From an uncultured Planctomycetaceae bacterium (GTDB lineage Bacteria > Planctomycetota > Planctomycetia > Gemmatales > Gemmataceae): a stretch of DNA of 64,000 bases. The stretch lies in NCBI GenBank assembly GCA_937888715.1, contig CALARU010000235.1, forward strand, positions 1 through 64,000, read 5' to 3'. Positions 2,747 through 11,966 of the stretch are shown piece after piece (within the stretch, counting starts at the first letter, position 1; every line of letters starts with the position of its first letter). The notes under the pieces were generated by a model. It had not been told where the DNA came from, made no database searches, and saw only the letters and a program-made list of their open reading frames with translations. A program made the position numbers and the translations under genes.

Positions 2747-2787
2747 AATAATTGGTTCTTTTCCCACCTGTTAACCATGGGGTGGTC

Positions 2788-5700
2788 ATGAGTTGGAAAG
2801 TTTTTGCTTTATTAGCTCCTTTATTTTTAATTACCTCGTTTAGCCCTGTTTTGGGGGCTGATCAAAGCGAACACGACTTTTTTGAAAACAAAATCCGTCC
2901 GCTTTTTGTTAGCTATTGTCATGATTGTCATAGCACATCAAAGAAACAGCGGGGAGGGCTTTTATTAGATTCAAAGCCTTCTGTTTTGAAGGGTGGCGAT
3001 TCCGGGCATTTATTTGTTGCAGGAAAACCAGAAGAAAGTTTGTTGATTAAGGTTGTGGCCTATGATGATGAAATTAAGATGCCTCCTAAAAGCAAACTTT
3101 CTGCTTCCCAAATCGAAGATCTCCGTAAATGGGTAAAAGATGGCGCTTACTGGCCTGTCGAAAAAAATGTTGCTGTAAAAGCAAACACATTTAATATCGA
3201 AGAAAGAAAAAAGCAATGGGCTTGGCAGCCATTAAGTAAATCTAACCCGAAATCATTGAGTTCAAATCCGTGGGTTAAATCTTCTATTGATGCCTTTGTG
3301 CTTGATAAAATGACCGAAAAAGGTCTGGCCCCTGCAACCCCTGCAGCAAAAGAGGCTTTGATCAGAAGGGCTTATTTTGATCTTATTGGCTTGCCACCTC
3401 TGCCTGCAGATACCAAGGCTTTTCTTCAAGATAACTCTCCCAATGCATTCGAAAAAGTTGTTAACAAATTACTAGACTCTTCTTCCTTTGGTGAAAAATG
3501 GGCTAGGCATTGGCTTGATCTTGTGCGCTATGGAGATTCTCGCGGACATGAATTCGATGCCTCGATTCCTAATGCTTTTCAGTATCGTGATTATGTTATT
3601 CGTGCCTTTAATTCTGATGTCCCCTACAACCAATTTGTCAAAGAGCACCTTGCAGGCGATTTAATCTCTAATCCCAGATTGCATCCTGTTGAAGGTTGGA
3701 ACGAATCCATCCTAGGTACCGGATTTCTTTATTTAGGCGAGGAAGTTCATTCCCCTGTTGATATTAGGCTTGATCAAGCGGATCGCTTTGATAATCGCAT
3801 TGATGTAATTGGGAAAACTTTTCTAGGCCTTACCATTGCTTGCGCCCGTTGCCATGACCATAAGTTTGATCCCATTCCTACCAAAGATTATTACTCCTTG
3901 TTTGGTTTTCTTTCAAGCAGTCATTATCGTTTGGCCCGTTTTCAGAGCATGGAGAAAAACAAAAAGATTGATCAAAAACTGGCTGTAATAAGAGATAGTT
4001 TAGAGCCTCTAATAAAGACAGAACTAAGTGATGCTGTTAAAAATGCTGCAGCTAATTTCCCCGCTTATGCCAAAGCTGCAAGTCTTGTTTACAAACTTGC
4101 AAGGGGGCACTCTGTTCTTGGTTCAGTTGACCAAGATATTCTTATTGATGATTTTGAGTCAGGCAGCTTTAAAGGGTGGAAAGTCGAAGGCAATGCTTTT
4201 AGTGCCACACCTGTCTCTTCCAATGATCTTGCCCCTGAGCAAAAAGATGGATCGTTTCAGGGCAAGTTTCTCGTCAATTCTTATATCCACAAAAAGGGAC
4301 AAAAGGTTTCTCGTTCTGACCAACCCACTGGTACTCTTACTTCTGCTCCTTTTTTAATCCAAAGGGATTACATTTCTTTGCTTGTTGGGGGCGGTAGTCA
4401 TCGTGGGAAAACTTGTGTTAATTTGTTGGTTGATGGCAAAACCGAAATTAGTATTACCGGCAAAAATCTAAACGCAATGTCTTTAGCTTCTATGGATGTT
4501 CGTCGCTTTGCAGGTAAGATGGCCACGATTCAAATTGTTGATCAAGAAACCGTCGGATGGGGTCACATTGCTGTTGATGCTATCAGGCAAACTAATTCTG
4601 TAATGCCAAAAGATGCATCAATTCTGGCACTTGGTAAAATCAACAAAAATGAGTTGGGAAAGATAGCAATTGCCGAGAAAGTTGACACAAATACGCTTTC
4701 AGAATTTTTGACGTATTTGTTAAAGGCTGATTCTGACCCTAAGCATCAGGATCATTTTTTTGCCAAAAAGATCCTCCATCCCGAGCTGTTTCGTTCTAAA
4801 AATAAAGACATCGGGACTATCGTTGGAGATTTGGAATTTAGGGAGTCCTTTAAAAATAAAAAGCTCATCATTGATTATTCGAATACTTTGGTTTCGGATT
4901 GGATGCCCGATGATGTTACTTATGGTCATGGCCCTGCCAAGTTAGGCGCACTTAAAATCGTAGGGACTAAACCCAAACTGGAATTCCAATTCGTTGAATA
5001 TTCAGCAGCGATGATTGATCCTTTTTGGCAAGATTTGAAGTACTCAAAAGGAGCAGAATCAGAGCCAGGTTCCCTTGGTGCTAACAGAGCAGGTAGGATT
5101 TTATCTACGCCTTCTTTTATTCTTGAAGATGGGTGGGTTCATTTTTTCGCAAAGGGTAAAGCTAAAGTTTATTCTTCTGTTGGGGCACACATTATGATTG
5201 CTGGGCCTTTGCACGGAAATTTGGTGCGCACTATCGATATGAATGATTGGGGGTGGGTCAGTATTGATCTAACCCGTTACAAAAACCTACCCGTACATCT
5301 TGAGTTTTCTTCTGATGATTTGAACTTTGCTGTTAGATTTGTTTTCCAGGGCGGGCAAGATAAACCTTTATTACCAACCTCTGCCCGCGAGTTTGTTTCT
5401 AAAACTTTAGCTCCTCTTGATGATCAACTTTTTTATCAAGAAATACAGAAATTGCTTTTTGAATTCTCTTCCCTCCTTAAGCAAGAAAAGGTGGCTGACA
5501 ATCAAAAAAATTCCGTATTGGCGGCTATTGGAAATTCAGTTGTTAATTTTGGTTTGATTAAATTTGATACCAGCGCAAAACAAGCTGTTGCCTCCCTGCT
5601 TGAAAAACAAATGATACTGCAGGGTGAAGTGCAGTGGGATTCCCAGTTGGCGTTAGCTTTGCAAGAAGGTAGCGGCATCGATGAGAAAGTTTTTGTTCGC

Positions 5701-6639
5701 GGTAGTCACAAAAACCTCGGTGAACCTGCTCCTCGTTCTTTTTTAACAGCTCTTGGTGGTGCTAAACTTCCCGTACAAAACTTAGGTAGTGGTAGGCTGC
5801 AACTTGCAGACTGGGTTACCAATATTGAAGCTGATCCTTTTCTTCCCAGAGTCATGGTTAATCGAATCTGGCACCATCTTTTAGGCAGAGGTATTGTTGC
5901 TTCCGTTGATAATTTTGGGTTGCTTGGTGAAAAACCAACGCATCCCGAATTGCTTGACTTTCTTGCATTACAATTCGTTGATGATGGTTGGTCTGTGAAA
6001 AAAACCATCAAGAAAATTATGCTTTCTTCTGTGTATCAAGCATCCTCGATGTCTTCCGATGTAGCGAAAAAATCTGACCCTGAAAATCTTTTCTTAAGCC
6101 ATGCCAACATGAAAAGGCTTTCTGGTGAATCCATTCGCGATGCAATGCTTTTAATCTCTGGCGAGTTGAATGAGACTATGTTTGGCCCACCGATCAACAT
6201 TAATTTGTCTGTTTTTCAAGAGGGCAGGGGAAGGCCAGCAAGTGGGCCTCTTGACGGGGCAGGTCGTAGGAGTATTTATCTTTCCTCACGAAGGAATTTT
6301 CTTTCTTCATTCATGCTTGCATTTGATTCGCCAATCCCGTTTTCCACCGTTGGTAAACGAAGTGTTTCAAATGTTCCAGCCCAATCCTTGATTTTAATGA
6401 ACGATCCTTTTGTGCATCAGCAATCGGAGAAATGGGCTAAAAAAATAATTGCGCAATATGCTGAACCTAGCATGCGATTGGATGCCATGTTTTGGCAGAC
6501 ATTTAGTCGCCTTCCCTCCACTTTAGAACTTGAAGAATGCATGGGCTATTTATCGGCATCATCTGCTACTGACTCTGAAAAATGGGCTTCAATTGCACAT
6601 TCTCTATGGAATGTTAAAGAATTTGTTTGGATCCCGTAG
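2788..6639 (+). CDS. Large PSCyt1-DUF1549-DUF1553 secreted protein (planctomycete cytochrome family)
   Basis: 1283 residues from the ATG at 2788, which directly precedes a clear signal peptide (MSWKVFALLAPLFLI) and follows a GGGGTGG ribosome site; an in-frame TTG at 2752 would put 12 unlikely residues in front. PSCyt1 occupies about 30-120 with heme motif C44-x-x-C47-H48. DUF1549 spans about 170-375 and holds a second CxxCH followed by DH (C352). A mid region of about 430-900 looks beta-rich, and DUF1553 occupies about 985-1250 (NRIWHHLLGRG, SVYQASS, LSGESIRDAM). The family is planctomycete/verrucomicrobial, extracytoplasmic and biochemically little known, and is often linked to polysaccharide use. 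The stop overlaps the region just before the DUF1501 gene, the usual partner. Confidence 0.88.
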   Translation: MSWKVFALLAPLFLITSFSPVLGADQSEHDFFENKIRPLFVSYCHDCHSTSKKQRGGLLLDSKPSVLKGGDSGHLFVAGKPEESLLIKVVAYDDEIKMPPKSKLSASQIEDLRKWVKDGAYWPVEKNVAVKANTFNIEERKKQWAWQPLSKSNPKSLSSNPWVKSSIDAFVLDKMTEKGLAPATPAAKEALIRRAYFDLIGLPPLPADTKAFLQDNSPNAFEKVVNKLLDSSSFGEKWARHWLDLVRYGDSRGHEFDASIPNAFQYRDYVIRAFNSDVPYNQFVKEHLAGDLISNPRLHPVEGWNESILGTGFLYLGEEVHSPVDIRLDQADRFDNRIDVIGKTFLGLTIACARCHDHKFDPIPTKDYYSLFGFLSSSHYRLARFQSMEKNKKIDQKLAVIRDSLEPLIKTELSDAVKNAAANFPAYAKAASLVYKLARGHSVLGSVDQDILIDDFESGSFKGWKVEGNAFSATPVSSNDLAPEQKDGSFQGKFLVNSYIHKKGQKVSRSDQPTGTLTSAPFLIQRDYISLLVGGGSHRGKTCVNLLVDGKTEISITGKNLNAMSLASMDVRRFAGKMATIQIVDQETVGWGHIAVDAIRQTNSVMPKDASILALGKINKNELGKIAIAEKVDTNTLSEFLTYLLKADSDPKHQDHFFAKKILHPELFRSKNKDIGTIVGDLEFRESFKNKKLIIDYSNTLVSDWMPDDVTYGHGPAKLGALKIVGTKPKLEFQFVEYSAAMIDPFWQDLKYSKGAESEPGSLGANRAGRILSTPSFILEDGWVHFFAKGKAKVYSSVGAHIMIAGPLHGNLVRTIDMNDWGWVSIDLTRYKNLPVHLEFSSDDLNFAVRFVFQGGQDKPLLPTSAREFVSKTLAPLDDQLFYQEIQKLLFEFSSLLKQEKVADNQKNSVLAAIGNSVVNFGLIKFDTSAKQAVASLLEKQMILQGEVQWDSQLALALQEGSGIDEKVFVRGSHKNLGEPAPRSFLTALGGAKLPVQNLGSGRLQLADWVTNIEADPFLPRVMVNRIWHHLLGRGIVASVDNFGLLGEKPTHPELLDFLALQFVDDGWSVKKTIKKIMLSSVYQASSMSSDVAKKSDPENLFLSHANMKRLSGESIRDAMLLISGELNETMFGPPININLSVFQEGRGRPASGPLDGAGRRSIYLSSRRNFLSSFMLAFDSPIPFSTVGKRSVSNVPAQSLILMNDPFVHQQSEKWAKKIIAQYAEPSMRLDAMFWQTFSRLPSTLELEECMGYLSASSATDSEKWASIAHSLWNVKEFVWIP

Positions 6640-6662
6640 GTCATCGTTTTAGGACTAAAGTT

Positions 6663-8081
6663 ATGCATTGTGGAAATTTTCAACCTAGGGCTCTTTCTAG
6701 AAGACAAATGCTCATTGGTAGTGCCAATGGGTTTGGTGCTCTTGCTTTTGGCGTGCTTCATGCCGGGGAAAATGACAAAAATAAACCCAATCCTTCGGGT
6801 GGTTTGCACCATCAAGCAAAGGCGAAAAATATAATTTTTCTGTATATGGATGGTGCGCCTTCCCAGATGGATACATTCGATCCCAAGCCCATGTTGTCTA
6901 AATATCATGGGGAAACGCCTGACAAGGTGCTCAAAGTATTGCCCACTCAATTCAATAGCATTGGTAAGATTTTGCAATCGCCCTGGAAATTCAAACAGTA
7001 TGGTCAAAGTGGTATTTGGGTAAGCGATTTATTTCCACATATTTCGAAACATGTAGATGAACTTGCGGTGATAAAATCTGCAGTTTCGAATTTTCCCGAA
7101 CATACAAGCGCAAATTACTTTATACATACGGGGAGTGGGCTTCAAGGGAGACCGAGTTGGGGCGCTTGGACTAGTTATGGACTTGGAAGCTTTAATAAAA
7201 ATCTTCCAGGCTTTTTGGTTCTAAACGGTGGACTTATCCCGCCTGGGGGGCTTGATAATTTTAATAGTGGTTTTTTGCCCGCTGCTTATCAAGGGTCTGT
7301 CTTTAAATATGGCCCTGCACCAGTTGCCAACATCAACCGCAAAGAACCTTCTGAAAAGATTCAAAAAGAAAAACTAGATCTTGTTAATCGTTTGGATAGG
7401 CTAAATATCCAAAAAAATGGAACGCATGACCAGATTGAGTCTGCCATCGCCAATCAAGAAACCGCTTTTCTTATGCAAACTTCTATTCCTGATTTGATGG
7501 ATATTAAAACCGAATCAAAGGCAACCCAAGATCTTTATGGTGTAAGTTCTCCAAACGCACCAACCAAAATTTTTGGCACTCAATGCCTTGTTGCAAGGCG
7601 GTTACTTGAACGTGGCGCGCGGTTTATCGAACTAACTTGCCCTTCAGTTGGTAGCGATCGTTGGGATCAACACAGTAATTTGAAAGATGGTCATCAGAAA
7701 AACGCCCTTGCTGTTGATCAACCCATTGCTGGATTGATCCAAGATCTTAAAGCTAAGGGTATGCTTGATTCCACGCTAATATTATGGTCTGGTGAGTTTG
7801 GGCGGACTCCTTTTGCTCAGGGAAATGATGGCAGGGATCACAATCCCTTTGGTTTTACCTGCTGGATGGCGGGTGGGGGCGTTAAAGGTGGCACGAATTA
7901 TGGTGCTACGGATGATTTTGGTTATCATGCTATTGATGGAAAAGTTGAAATTCACGATATTCATGCGACTATGTTACATCTACTTGGAATTGATCATAAA
8001 AAATTAACATTCCGATTTGGTGGCAGAGATATGCGGTTAACCGATGTTCATGGCGAGGTTATTTCTAAAATATTAGTTTGA
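6663..8081 (+). CDS. DUF1501 family protein (sulfatase-like fold), Tat-type leader
   Basis: 472 residues from the ATG at 6663. A TTG start at 6627 is possible but would overlap the upstream gene, and the sequence after 6663 (SRRQMLIGSANGFGALAFG) is the typical twin-arginine leader of this family. Family hallmarks seen are IFLYMDGAPSQMDTFDPK near the N-terminus, GARFIELTC, ILWSGEFGRTPFAQ and RDHNPFGFTCWMAGGGVKGG. The fold is related to alkaline phosphatase/sulfatase proteins, but substrates are unknown. DUF1501 genes nearly always follow a DUF1549/DUF1553 gene, as here with a 23-base gap, implying a paired exported complex or pathway. Confidence 0.9.
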   Translation: MHCGNFQPRALSRRQMLIGSANGFGALAFGVLHAGENDKNKPNPSGGLHHQAKAKNIIFLYMDGAPSQMDTFDPKPMLSKYHGETPDKVLKVLPTQFNSIGKILQSPWKFKQYGQSGIWVSDLFPHISKHVDELAVIKSAVSNFPEHTSANYFIHTGSGLQGRPSWGAWTSYGLGSFNKNLPGFLVLNGGLIPPGGLDNFNSGFLPAAYQGSVFKYGPAPVANINRKEPSEKIQKEKLDLVNRLDRLNIQKNGTHDQIESAIANQETAFLMQTSIPDLMDIKTESKATQDLYGVSSPNAPTKIFGTQCLVARRLLERGARFIELTCPSVGSDRWDQHSNLKDGHQKNALAVDQPIAGLIQDLKAKGMLDSTLILWSGEFGRTPFAQGNDGRDHNPFGFTCWMAGGGVKGGTNYGATDDFGYHAIDGKVEIHDIHATMLHLLGIDHKKLTFRFGGRDMRLTDVHGEVISKILV

Positions 8082-8127
8082 TAGAACCTGAGTTATATAT
8101 GTTCATTTTTCGGGGGTGTGTTTTACG

Positions 8128-8739
8128 ATGAGAGTTTTTTTTTCGTTTTTCGTTATCATTCTTTTTTATCAATTACTTAATGCTGCCCAAGAAAAAGCAG
8201 TTCCTGTAACGGAGGTTTTATTTAAAGAGGGAGAAATTTTACCCGGTCCGTTTTACCCTTTTGTTGTTAATGGGCCTCGAAAAGACCGTTTACGCGCACT
8301 GATCAACGAGAAACCTGACAAAACTTTTATTCTTATGTTTTTCCAAGGTGCAACTGTCCCTGAGTATCTAGGCAAATCCCTTGAAGAACTCAACGCAAAT
8401 ATCAAAGGAAATAAAAGCAAAGGCTTTCCGACTTCAGCCATGGCCATTTTTGTTAATCAGGACATTAAAAATGTTGTTAAGGATGATGAAAAACGAAATG
8501 AATTTGTCAAAGCAATTCGATCTGCAATTGCTGAAGATAAATCCGATTTTATTGAGGTCGGGGTTGATGATCTAGAAGATTTAAAAAACTATAAACTTGG
8601 GCAAGCGACCACTGTCTTGATGCTTCGTTGCGAAAACTTAAAGGTTATAAAAATGGTAAATTTAGACGCTACAACTTCCAATGCGGATGGTTTTTCCAAA
8701 GCCTTGGAGCAATTACTTGTATTGCCCAAGGGGAAATGA
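8128..8739 (+). CDS. Exported protein of unknown function, possibly a degenerate redoxin-like fold
   Basis: 203 residues. The ATG at 8128 has GGGGGTG upstream and begins a signal peptide (MRVFFSFFVIILFYQLLNAAQ); the GTG at 8116 is less likely. The mature part opens with GEILPGPFYPFVVNGPRK, which resembles the start of planctomycete thioredoxin/peroxiredoxin-like proteins, but no CxxC or peroxidatic cysteine is seen. The only cysteine near the C-terminus is in LMLRCENLK. The function is unknown; a thioredoxin-like fold without redox activity is inferred from the beta-alpha pattern and is uncertain. It follows the DUF1501 gene by 46 bases on the same strand. Confidence 0.6.
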   Translation: MRVFFSFFVIILFYQLLNAAQEKAVPVTEVLFKEGEILPGPFYPFVVNGPRKDRLRALINEKPDKTFILMFFQGATVPEYLGKSLEELNANIKGNKSKGFPTSAMAIFVNQDIKNVVKDDEKRNEFVKAIRSAIAEDKSDFIEVGVDDLEDLKNYKLGQATTVLMLRCENLKVIKMVNLDATTSNADGFSKALEQLLVLPKGK

Positions 8740-8862: not shown

Positions 8863-10257
8863 ATGAAATCTTCCCAAGGGATTATTGCTGTTTTGCTTTT
8901 TGTGGTTATGGTGTTTGGTTTGACCTTTGCAATGAATTATCTTGGCGGGTTCAACGAGGTAAAAAATCCAACTCAAAATAAAGATAACAACTCTACTAAT
9001 TCCTCCGATAATACTGATGATGGTTCCAATCAAGAACTTACTTTTTTGCAAAAAATATACCCATCGGATGGTATTAGCGCTCTTGAAAATGAATATAAAA
9101 TGGGGGGCATGCAAGACTTTCTTTTTGCTCATGAAGGTTTGTTGCCTCTAAAAATCGGCCTAGATAGTAAAAATTGTACCTGCACAAGTGTTCTTATGTA
9201 CGAACTTCCCTCAGAATGGCTGATAAGTAATCTCAGCAAAGACTCCACGGGTAAAATCAACTTGTTGAAAATTGAAGAGGAACTGTCTAATAATGAGATT
9301 AAAGCTATTCTTGAAAAACAAATTACTCCTATCCCCTTGGAAAAAAACGAGCAGCCTATCTTGAATGCTGGCTCAGTGGGTTGGATCAGGCTCCAGTGGA
9401 AAACTGAAAAAATGGGCCCTAATCGTCTTACTGCAAACATATGGATGGGTAAAAAAGGTGGCGGGAATGAATCGAGGCTTGAAGCTTTGGTTAATGTTCA
9501 GGCTGCACTCTTTGTTAATCCTGTAGAAATCCCAATTGATGTTTTGTCTCCGTTAGTTTCAGAAAAAAAAATTGCTTTTAAATGTTATTCTTCCACCCGA
9601 AAATCCTTCGATTTAATTGTCAAAATGACTAGGCCCAGACCTGATGAAACCGTCATTATTGGAAAACCTGTCCCCTTGACAAATGAAGAACTAAAAATTG
9701 ATGAAAAACAGTTCGGCGGTGCTCCTCTTTTGTCCGGTTATCTGGTACCAATAACGGCATCTTATAGTGTTCCTGGTGGTAAAGATTTGATGGAACTTGG
9801 ACCATTTAGCAGACAAATCGAATTTATCATTACCAAAAATAATCAAAAAGATTTGGAATCTGACACCCGTGTTGAAGCAAGGATCACAGGGAAGGTTGAG
9901 GGCGAATTTCGAATCCTTGACGCAGAACAACGGGGTAGGCTTTCGATGGGGGTTTTTCAAAGGGGACTGGGCTCTAAAAAAGAATTGAAAATAGAAACTG
10001 ATTTGCAGGGAATAGATCTTGAGTTGGATATTGTTAAAACAACTCCATACCTTAAGGCTAAGCTTGTTTCCGGGTGGCCTCAGGATGTTTCTGGCCGTAG
10101 GACTTGGAAGTACTCCGTTGAAATTGCCCCGAATACCGTAAGTGGCCCTTTTCCTCGGGATGATGAGTTTTTTCGAGATAGTTCCTTTTATCTTAAATCC
10201 AAAGGGAATTCATCCAGGTCTATTCGTATTCCTGTTGAAGGCCGTGCCGATAATTAA
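8863..10257 (+). CDS. Membrane-anchored protein of unknown function
   Basis: 464 residues. The ATG has GAGGTG seven bases upstream. One N-terminal membrane helix (about 7-27, IIAVLLFVVMVFGLTFAMNYL) is followed by an Asn/Asp/Ser-rich linker (about 34-55), so the bulk is expected outside the cytoplasm. The remainder looks beta-rich. Residues near 105 contain NCTCTSV, a short cysteine pair reminiscent of the conserved cysteine motif in DUF1573-type proteins common in planctomycetes; this relation is tentative. No catalytic motif was recognised. It precedes the tetraheme cytochrome gene by about 40 bases on the same strand, so a shared extracytoplasmic role is possible. Confidence 0.6.
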   Translation: MKSSQGIIAVLLFVVMVFGLTFAMNYLGGFNEVKNPTQNKDNNSTNSSDNTDDGSNQELTFLQKIYPSDGISALENEYKMGGMQDFLFAHEGLLPLKIGLDSKNCTCTSVLMYELPSEWLISNLSKDSTGKINLLKIEEELSNNEIKAILEKQITPIPLEKNEQPILNAGSVGWIRLQWKTEKMGPNRLTANIWMGKKGGGNESRLEALVNVQAALFVNPVEIPIDVLSPLVSEKKIAFKCYSSTRKSFDLIVKMTRPRPDETVIIGKPVPLTNEELKIDEKQFGGAPLLSGYLVPITASYSVPGGKDLMELGPFSRQIEFIITKNNQKDLESDTRVEARITGKVEGEFRILDAEQRGRLSMGVFQRGLGSKKELKIETDLQGIDLELDIVKTTPYLKAKLVSGWPQDVSGRRTWKYSVEIAPNTVSGPFPRDDEFFRDSSFYLKSKGNSSRSIRIPVEGRADN

Positions 10258-10298
10258 ATGATTGCCTAAATACTTAACACCATGGAAGGTGGTTGGTT

Positions 10299-11966
10299 AT
10301 GAAAAATAAGTTTGTTCTATCATTAAAACATCGTTTGGTTTCTTACAAAGCCAGCATTTTTTCGGCTTTATTAGTAACTTCATTTTTAGCTGCCTACCAT
10401 TTAGGGCTCTTTACTAATGCTCTTGCTCAAGAAACTAAAGGGAAGGAACTGGTAGCAATTGCTTCAACCACTCCCATTCCCAAGTCTTTATTAAAATGGG
10501 AAAAACCCGACCTTACTTTAATTCTTACTGCACAGCAGCATGGGTATTTATTGCCATGCGGTTGTTCTAGGCCCCAAGTCGGGGGGTTGGAAAGGCGTTA
10601 TAATTTTATTCAAGCCCTTAAAACCAACGGCTGGAACCTTACTGCTTTAGATCTTGGGGATCTTTCTCAAAAACAAGGGCCGGTTTCTCTGCCCAATGAA
10701 CAAGGGTTGATTAAATATCGTTACGCCATGAATGCCCAGAAAAAGATCGGGTATTCTGTTGTCGGCTTTGGAGAGTATGAAACAGCATTGCCTTTGTTTA
10801 ACGCTTTAGCTGAATACGCACTCAACGAACCTAGTCCAAGAGTTGTTTCTGCGAATCTTCTTGATCGTGAAAAAGAATTTCCCGATCAAGTTTCTGCTTG
10901 GCAAAAAGTTGATATCAAGGGATCGGATATTAAGTTAGGTGTAACTGGAGTTGTTAGCCCAAATATCGCAGAAAAAATCAAGGACCCTAGAGTTAAGTTT
11001 GGCCCTTCCAAAGTTGCTTTGGATTCCGTGTTGAAAGAAATGAACCAAGATAACATTCAACTTAAAGTCTTACTTTATCAGGGGGTTCTCAATCGCAGTC
11101 CGAAGGGTGAGCCTGCAACCGAAGCTTTGAAAGCGGCCCAATCCTATCCCGAATTTCAAATTCTTATGTGCCTTAGTGAAGAAGATGAGCCTTCTTCCAA
11201 TCCCATTACCATAAGTCACGAAAACAAAAAACAGTCGCTAATCATCAGGATGGGAACCAAGGGTAAGTATGTTGGGGTTTTGGGCGTTTATAAAACAGGC
11301 GATCCTTCTCAGCCTTTTAAGTTTCGTTATACCATTGAACAAATGTCTGAAGATTACATAACGACTGAATCCGCAAAAAAAAATCACCCTGTCATGGAAC
11401 TCATGGAATCTTACGCTAAAGAACTTAAAAACGAAAATTACTTATCTAGGTTTGGCCAAGCCAGACACCCAGTTCAGGTTTCTGCACCTGGTTCAAATCC
11501 TGTTTATGTCGGTTCCGAAAAATGTAAGAAATGCCATGAATCCGCTTATGATGTTTGGAAAAAATCGACTCATAGTCATGCCTATCAAACCCTTGTTGAT
11601 GCCAAGGAACCTTCTTTACGACACTATGATCCCGAATGCATTGTTTGTCATACCGTTGGATTTGGGTACCAATCAGGTTTTACTACCTTTGAAAAAACGC
11701 CCAACCTTACCAATGTTGGGTGCGAAAGTTGCCATGGCCCCTCAAGCGAACATGTTAAAAAACCTAATGATGAAAGCTGGCACAAACTTATTAATCCTTG
11801 GAAAACTGTGAGTGGAGAAACACCCGCAGATAAAGAATCTCGGTTGGGAAAAACGGATCAGTTTTGCCAGAAATGCCATGATATTGATAATGATGTCACT
11901 TGGACGAACAAAGGTTTTGAACGAAAATGGCCTAAAGTAGCGCATCCTTCCCCAGCATCTGAGTAA
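10299..11966 (+). CDS. UshA-like domain fused to a tetraheme cytochrome c (c554-like)
   Basis: 555 residues from the ATG at 10299 (GGAAGGTGG upstream); TTG 10293 is an alternative. An N-terminal hydrophobic segment (about 15-45) serves as signal or anchor. Residues about 65-350 resemble the metallophosphatase-like UshA family in a planctomycete form carrying LPCGCSRPQVGGLERR in place of the classical metal ligands. The C-terminal part has four c-type heme sites: CKKCH (about 409), CIVCH (about 447), CESCH (about 475) and CQKCH (about 523), the pattern of the cytochrome c554/multiheme family. Expected location is the periplasm. Electron transfer is inferred from the heme motifs; the role of the N-terminal domain is unknown. 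Confidence 0.82.
   Translation: MKNKFVLSLKHRLVSYKASIFSALLVTSFLAAYHLGLFTNALAQETKGKELVAIASTTPIPKSLLKWEKPDLTLILTAQQHGYLLPCGCSRPQVGGLERRYNFIQALKTNGWNLTALDLGDLSQKQGPVSLPNEQGLIKYRYAMNAQKKIGYSVVGFGEYETALPLFNALAEYALNEPSPRVVSANLLDREKEFPDQVSAWQKVDIKGSDIKLGVTGVVSPNIAEKIKDPRVKFGPSKVALDSVLKEMNQDNIQLKVLLYQGVLNRSPKGEPATEALKAAQSYPEFQILMCLSEEDEPSSNPITISHENKKQSLIIRMGTKGKYVGVLGVYKTGDPSQPFKFRYTIEQMSEDYITTESAKKNHPVMELMESYAKELKNENYLSRFGQARHPVQVSAPGSNPVYVGSEKCKKCHESAYDVWKKSTHSHAYQTLVDAKEPSLRHYDPECIVCHTVGFGYQSGFTTFEKTPNLTNVGCESCHGPSSEHVKKPNDESWHKLINPWKTVSGETPADKESRLGKTDQFCQKCHDIDNDVTWTNKGFERKWPKVAHPSPASE

Follow-up and report, generated by a model that had tools for sequence, protein, structure and literature searches.

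The locus described here raises the question of what a protein does that joins a UshA-like domain to a tetraheme cytochrome c, and whether the gene in front of it is its partner. The window, meaning the whole stretch of DNA that was analysed (64,000 nucleotides), comes from a planctomycete of the family Gemmataceae, whose draft genome totals 4.56 Mb in 414 contigs. The fusion gene and its parts were located as follows.

10299 to 11966, plus strand: UshA-fold/tetraheme cytochrome fusion ORF, ATG to stop, 555 amino acids, matching NF041198 below and PF13435 above the respective cut-off.
10323 to 10400, plus strand: hydrophobic N-terminal helix (residues 9–34), a predicted export signal or membrane anchor; helix in the model, role read from the residues.
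10500 to 11453, plus strand: 5′-nucleotidase/UshA-fold domain (residues ~68–385) with degenerate metal ligands, from profile match, structure match and ligand columns.
10557 to 10565, plus strand: CGC motif (residues 87–89), the second Cys being the Sec position in CGU relatives.
11505 to 11948, plus strand: cytochrome c554-like tetraheme domain (residues ~403–550).
11523 to 11537, plus strand: heme 1 motif CKKCH (residues 409–413), invariant.
11571 to 11573, plus strand: H425, candidate distal heme ligand.
11637 to 11651, plus strand: heme 2 motif CIVCH (residues 447–451), invariant.
11721 to 11735, plus strand: heme 3 motif CESCH (residues 475–479), invariant.
11751 to 11753, plus strand: H485, candidate distal heme ligand.
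11865 to 11879, plus strand: heme 4 motif CQKCH (residues 523–527), invariant.
11943 to 11945, plus strand: H549, candidate distal heme ligand.

The reading frame has an alternative start, TTG at 10293, two codons 5′ of the ATG at 10299, and the opposite strand is stop-rich in the same frame. An artefactual ORF was ruled out because homologues were found in 59 of 59 genomes, the window's own included, and because dN/dS was about 0.05 (about 0.04 and 0.06 for two close orthologues with 98% and 90% identity, respectively). Four CXXCH motifs, at residues 409, 447, 475 and 523, were obtained by chance in 0 of 20,000 shuffles of the protein, with a mean of 0.004 (3,000 shuffles). The protein contains 11 cysteines, namely eight in the CXXCH motifs, two in CGC, which opens the segment CGCSRPQVGGLERR (residues 87–100), and C291, a position at which only 8 of 45 orthologues have Cys. 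An A-x-A-like site (NALA-QET) may be read after the N-terminal helix. The AlphaFold2 model of the protein had a pLDDT of 88.6 and a pTM of 0.85.

Conservation was followed in two sets of orthologues. The first set contained 41 proteins, that of the window and 40 matches from 39 of the other 58 genomes (one genome gives two), and these 40 relatives are free of heme bias because they were fetched by a whole-protein search. The second set came from 80 named loci (L076–L155) retrieved with sequence patterns that span hemes 3 and 4, so heme conservation in these loci is partly built in. Alignment A2 (45 rows) consisted of 44 of the 80 loci and the window; L097, in which no reading frame could be followed, was left out of the alignments. 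Several of the 40 relatives are from the same genomes as named loci.

The C-terminal part of the protein is a tetraheme domain of the cytochrome c554 type. PF13435 matched residues 408–480 with 64.5 bits against a gathering score of 20.8, and the best solved relative of the heme part was Nitrosomonas cytochrome c554 (1bvb; E 7.4e-25 with the family profile). The four heme motifs were kept in 41 of 41 orthologues and in all 45 rows of A2. Outside these motifs, exactly three histidines were invariant, H425, H485 and H549 (41/41 and 45/45), and they are candidate distal ligands. Cytochrome c554 has three bis-His hemes and one open heme. Three extra invariant histidines for four hemes are the same number as in this pattern, which is a comparison of counts only. 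Both proteins share the tetraheme domain, to which the focal family adds the three invariant histidines outside CXXCH, but the focal heme domain is fused to an N-terminal domain and a role in ammonia oxidation is not implied. Against NF043010, the focal protein scored 49.4 bits, far below the cut-off of 400. In the excerpt of PMC8840924, c554 is named as a heme-packing example only.

A Pfam scan of the N-terminal half of the fusion protein gave no match. However, a profile built from 45 orthologues found 5′-nucleotidases with an E value of 8.8e-23, E. coli UshA with about 1e-12, and SoxB with 7e-6. The model superposed on the 5′-nucleotidase of T. thermophilus (2z1a) with Z 29.8 and rmsd 2.7 over 282 residues, and on E. 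coli UshA (1ush) with Z 27.5 and rmsd 3.0 over 284 residues; the Z scores against CD73 and SoxB were about 29 and 26.6, respectively. The N-terminal half is a true homologue of 5′-nucleotidase and UshA. The two-domain fusion and the four heme-binding motifs proposed by the first-pass annotation are therefore real: the N-terminal half has its profile and structure matches, and the C-terminal half has its Pfam match and four CXXCH motifs that are not lost in homologues.

The catalytic fold is shared with E. coli UshA, CD73 and bacterial 5′-nucleotidases (Z 27–30), but the metal site is not. The dimetal ligands of CD73, which we take to be D36, H38, D85, N117, H220 and H243, were mapped by eye through alignments of the family with nucleotidases, and the columns were counted over A2. 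Asp was found at the D36 and D85 columns in 1 and 16 of the 45 rows, respectively, His at H38, H220 and H243 in 14, 22 and 6 rows, respectively, and Asn at N117 in none. The focal protein has Q79, H81, D121, E159, Q261 and S293 at these positions and so keeps two of the six (H81 and D121), and no row keeps more than three. The dimetal site of the nucleotidase-fold domain is lost, although the 22 of 45 relatives with His at H220 may, judging from this residue, bind a metal. Furthermore, the nucleotide-binding C-terminal domain of nucleotidases had no Pfam match in the focal protein or among the families listed for the 45 members. This ancestral domain is replaced by the cytochrome domain, which occupies the place of the substrate domain of UshA and 5′-nucleotidase.

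The residues C87, G88 and C89 were conserved in 41 of 41 and 45 of 45 orthologues. The CGC motif had been placed by the earlier annotation at the position of the nucleotidase metal ligands, and this has to be corrected: it replaces no ligand and sits six to eight residues further along, in the loop that follows directly on the first ligand motif (DxH in nucleotidases and Q79-x-H81 in the focal protein). The degradation of the ligands themselves is a separate matter.

The fused family is already known and is catalogued without a function. NCBIfam holds it as NF041198 (UshA_like_PCGU, 'UshA-like (seleno)protein'), which has the same two-domain layout and a C-G-[C/U] motif, and tables of selenoproteins have included UshA-like CxU proteins since 2008, according to the excerpts of PMC2398784 and, later, of PMC9312934 and PMC13188914; the fusion itself is therefore not a discovery. 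The profile of NF041198 matched both halves of the focal protein with 170.6 bits, below the curated cut-off of 275. Its motif feature is present as C87-G88-C89 after the first beta strand of the UshA-type domain, and for the tetraheme part profile positions 361–513 fell on focal residues 359–532. A second, shorter profile (NF049981, UshA_like_Sel_2; 262 positions) matched weakly at residues 72–111 around the motif, with 23.6 bits against a cut-off of 140, and matched 22 of the 45 orthologues; its motif is given as CxxU in the excerpt of PMC13188914.

As the tree showed, 44 of the 45 A2 rows (from the class of the window, anammox bacteria and one bin) grouped together with a support of 93/84 (not starred), and all of them were Cys forms. 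The remaining row, L152, joined another phylum. The focal protein belongs to an all-Cys sister group of NF041198. Within the class of the window, the family profile matched 197 of 198 genomes at E ≤ 1e-3, and in 194 of the 198 the E value was below 1e-70, the exceptions being G386, G437, G443 and G421. The named loci are from Gemmatales (among them Limnoglobus roseus PX52, L080), Isosphaeraceae, Pirellulales, Planctomycetales and anammox genera. In broad terms, the gene tree agrees with these groupings, which suggests vertical inheritance of the fusion gene. Spread on plasmids was considered and set aside, with no match in 72,556 plasmid records. In a wider family search, 117 of 149 genomes gave a match, but so did 9 of 14 control genomes, which makes this count uninformative, and only 9 of the 149 were over the cut-off.

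Selenocysteine at the second position of the motif was observed in relatives. At 11 loci in 11 genomes, namely seven distant planctomycetes and four genomes of the phylum reached through L152, an in-frame TGA occupies precisely the third position of CG[C/U]; the loci were filtered so that the frame contains no further TGA as far as the fourth CXXCH. All 11 genomes contain a tRNA-Sec above the Rfam cut-off. In the seven planctomycetes (L168–L174) two UshA-cytochrome genes stand in tandem, the Sec copy (CGU) directly before the Cys copy (VCGC). In a tree of 69 proteins, the Sec label required at least three changes. Selenocysteine in place of the second Cys argues for redox chemistry at CGC, and the redox role that the first-pass annotation had proposed is supported at this motif. 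At two of the tandem loci (L168:2702–3993 and L173:2337–3841), genes named from sequence as ECF-sigma-like and zinc-finger anti-sigma-like lie directly before the pair.

Among the 19 genomes examined, 16 had a tRNA-Sec over the cut-off, compared with 5 of 14 controls. Five of the genomes with tRNA-Sec had no known Sec copy: G244 and, with a Cys form of the gene, G000, G014, G027 and G034. The tRNA supports Sec decoding but singles out no gene, because four genomes of the class with a Cys copy have it as well. The genome of the window (G000) has its tRNA-Sec at contig C124:4094–4187 (68.8 bits), so selenoprotein synthesis is probable in this host even though its fusion gene is the Cys form. No Sec member was seen in the window's class among the copies looked at. 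The TGA codons flagged in G010, G462, G463 and G335 were terminal stops after the last heme, with the motif CGC, and L175–L177 were likewise Cys forms.

The gene in front of the fusion gene was located as follows.

8863 to 10257, plus strand: conserved upstream neighbour, a membrane-anchored DUF1573-like protein of 464 amino acids with Ig/ASH-type repeats; model pLDDT 82.3, pTM 0.72.
8872 to 8949, plus strand: predicted N-terminal transmembrane helix (residues 4–29), from model and sequence.
9175 to 9183, plus strand: C-x-C motif (C105-T-C107).

The stop codon of this gene lies 41 bases before the ATG of the fusion gene. Its model has beta-sandwich domains after the helix, which we read as three Ig-like repeats, and the closest structures were HYDIN/ASH-type repeats (Z about 10, rmsd near 15), a likeness at the level of fold only. 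At the gathering score of PF07610 (DUF1573), the copy in the window gave no Pfam match. It is too divergent for Pfam and was linked through its relatives: a profile of 50 upstream relatives matched it with 25.0 bits (E 7.4e-10, one sequence, filters off), and PF07610 was found in 48 of the 51 upstream proteins of alignment A3. This alignment was made from 50 of 51 upstream ORFs (79 loci) chosen for a C-x-C within residues 41–190, together with the window; L146 was dropped. Both cysteines were present in all 51 rows, an invariance that is partly built in because the ORFs were chosen for C-x-C. Among 25 upstream ORFs not chosen for the motif (from BLAST clusters of the relatives and the window), 24 had C-x-C and one had C-x-x-C. 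Ig-like repeats with C-x-C are what the upstream protein shares with DUF1573. The motif is changed to C-x-x-C at two Gemmataceae loci (L074 and L082). DUF1573 is listed as a selenoprotein family with the motif UGC in the excerpts of PMC9312934 and PMC13188914.

An adjacent DUF1573-like ORF on the same strand was detected by HMM at 82 of 141 loci: the window, 25 of 40 relatives, 54 of 80 named loci and 2 of 20 others. The HMM shares the bias of A3, and the 54 named loci include its own training rows. When BLAST clusters and a protein search were added, the relatives with an adjacent partner rose to 29 of 40, and at the other 11 none of these methods found one next to the gene. Nine further matches were found elsewhere in the flanks, all on the same strand and six of them 0.5–1.5 kb upstream, so the contrast between adjacent and elsewhere is not a clean background. 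A better background for adjacency is the number of DUF1573 matches per whole genome, which was 3–10 in eight genomes. The window's type of partner is a single copy in its own genome. Fifteen Gemmataceae genomes, five in which the linkage had been seen before and ten in which it had not, were searched with the partner of the window; a homologue was adjacent in eight (three of them from the ten), elsewhere in five and not detected in two. G013 and G022 each have two focal paralogues and no detectable partner homologue. At the Scalindua locus (L127), opposing genes flank the pair, which has no other company. The HMM found no DUF1573-like ORF at L168–L174, where Sec and Cys copies stand in tandem, so that the Sec forms give no sign of the partnership. 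The gene conserved as partner of the fusion gene thus encodes a membrane-anchored DUF1573-like protein that itself has a C-x-C motif, in agreement with the earlier suggestion that the neighbouring membrane-anchored gene may be a partner.

Other neighbours differed more. The wider gene cluster was set aside as a functional clue, the surroundings being different in Gemmatales and anammox loci. Upstream genes resembling O-antigen ligase (31/80) and WecA/MraY (22/80), named from sequence, recurred in the named loci, mostly two or three genes off. Just upstream of the pair in the window, positions 2752–8081 hold a long ORF that contains a CHDCH motif, with a DUF1501 protein (PF07394) after it, and this order is kept in the loci of the genus that were looked at. 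A 207-residue exported-looking protein without a Pfam family (8116–8739) lies between the DUF1501 gene and the partner and was found at 5 of 41 loci compared.

The explanation that we favour, tentatively and at slightly less than an even chance, is a two-protein periplasmic relay on a degenerate phosphatase scaffold, in which heme-coupled thiol/disulfide chemistry, or a thiol-bound substrate, is handled. The CGC pair would alternate between a dithiol and either a disulfide or an adduct bound to the thiol. It would exchange with the C-x-C of the partner, or with a substrate shared or bound between both proteins. The same pair would trade single electrons with the hemes, and these would link to periplasmic cytochromes and the respiratory chain. 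The preferred direction would be thiol oxidation with the hemes as acceptor, a lean taken because the class of the window is mostly aerobic. Direct electron transfer from thiol to heme is unusual, which counts against the relay. According to the excerpt of PMC12561257, a CGC triad in NOX2 has PDI-like activity, and the same excerpt cites Woycechowsky and Raines 2003 on the CXC motif.

Four other explanations were weighed. The first is a SoxB-like protein, in which the Ig-like partner would carry a sulfur compound (persulfide, thiosulfate or sulfite) on its cysteines, CGC would act on this compound and the hemes would take the electrons, as a compressed SoxB/SoxYZ with its cytochromes. The fold resembles that of SoxB thiosulfohydrolase in the structure and profile matches given above, and the SoxB model TIGR04486 matched 18 of the 45 family members (best 1.3e-20), compared with 3 of 45 for the UshA model NF007109; in SoxYZ, moreover, the carrier is an Ig-like protein that has a reactive Cys. 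However, the focal protein itself gave no SoxB match at E values up to 0.1, SoxB needs the dimetal site that the focal family has lost, and occurrence in almost all genomes of a class that is largely heterotrophic suits a housekeeping role more than sulfur oxidation. We consider this explanation unlikely, and it stands first among the alternatives.

Ranking second, and improbable in our judgement, is a structural or vestigial CGC in a simple tetraheme carrier, to which the N-terminal domain would contribute only a scaffold or a docking module. CD73 has a structural disulfide, C51–C57, in the same loop, and c554-type domains act as carriers alone. A structural disulfide would not need the Sec that is found at the second Cys at 11 loci, and CGC is invariant while no other Cys of the N-terminal domain is conserved, C291 included.

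Metal handling comes third, and we give it a correspondingly small chance. The two C-x-C sites would bind or pass Cu(I) or a similar soft ion, and the hemes would change its oxidation state. Two adjacent, predicted exported proteins do carry such sites, and the excerpted selenoprotein table also contains metal-related families, the mercuric transport protein (C/SxxU) and a metal-binding protein (UxxU). On the other side, no invariant His or Met lies beside CGC, no metal-resistance genes were recognised among the recurrent neighbours, which were named from sequence, and the partner motif becomes CxxC at the two Gemmataceae loci mentioned above. The last alternative, a hydrolase still working with an altered metal site beside hemes of separate function, is very improbable: the nucleotidase fold is intact in the model and D118 is conserved (41/41 in the relatives and 38/45 in A2), but at most three of the six canonical ligands are left in any row and the nucleotidase substrate domain was not found in the Pfam scans.

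Returning to the thiol relay, no functional or biochemical study of any member of the fusion family was found in the literature search, and the fusion protein is absent from the excerpt of PMC12758564. Four findings are new as far as the searches go: the metal site has been lost, nearly all genomes of the class have the protein, it is partnered with DUF1573, and Sec and Cys copies stand in tandem pairs. A broader proposal, which we regard as doubtful, is that the pair forms a new periplasmic thiol oxidoreductase system that is core to planctomycetes, anammox bacteria included. A dead nucleotidase fold would show C-G-C (elsewhere C-G-Sec) directly to a four-heme wire, not to a flavin or quinone, and the membrane-anchored DUF1573 protein would be the thiol donor or acceptor. 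If this is true, it would give DUF1573 proteins their first functional setting. If CGC does trade electrons with the hemes, thiol chemistry would be tied to respiration in an uncommon way, and this in a phylum that has many c-type cytochromes. The fusion protein is near-universal in its class, and the pairing of UshA-like and DUF1573 proteins, both of which stand in selenoprotein tables, turns two annotations into one testable system.
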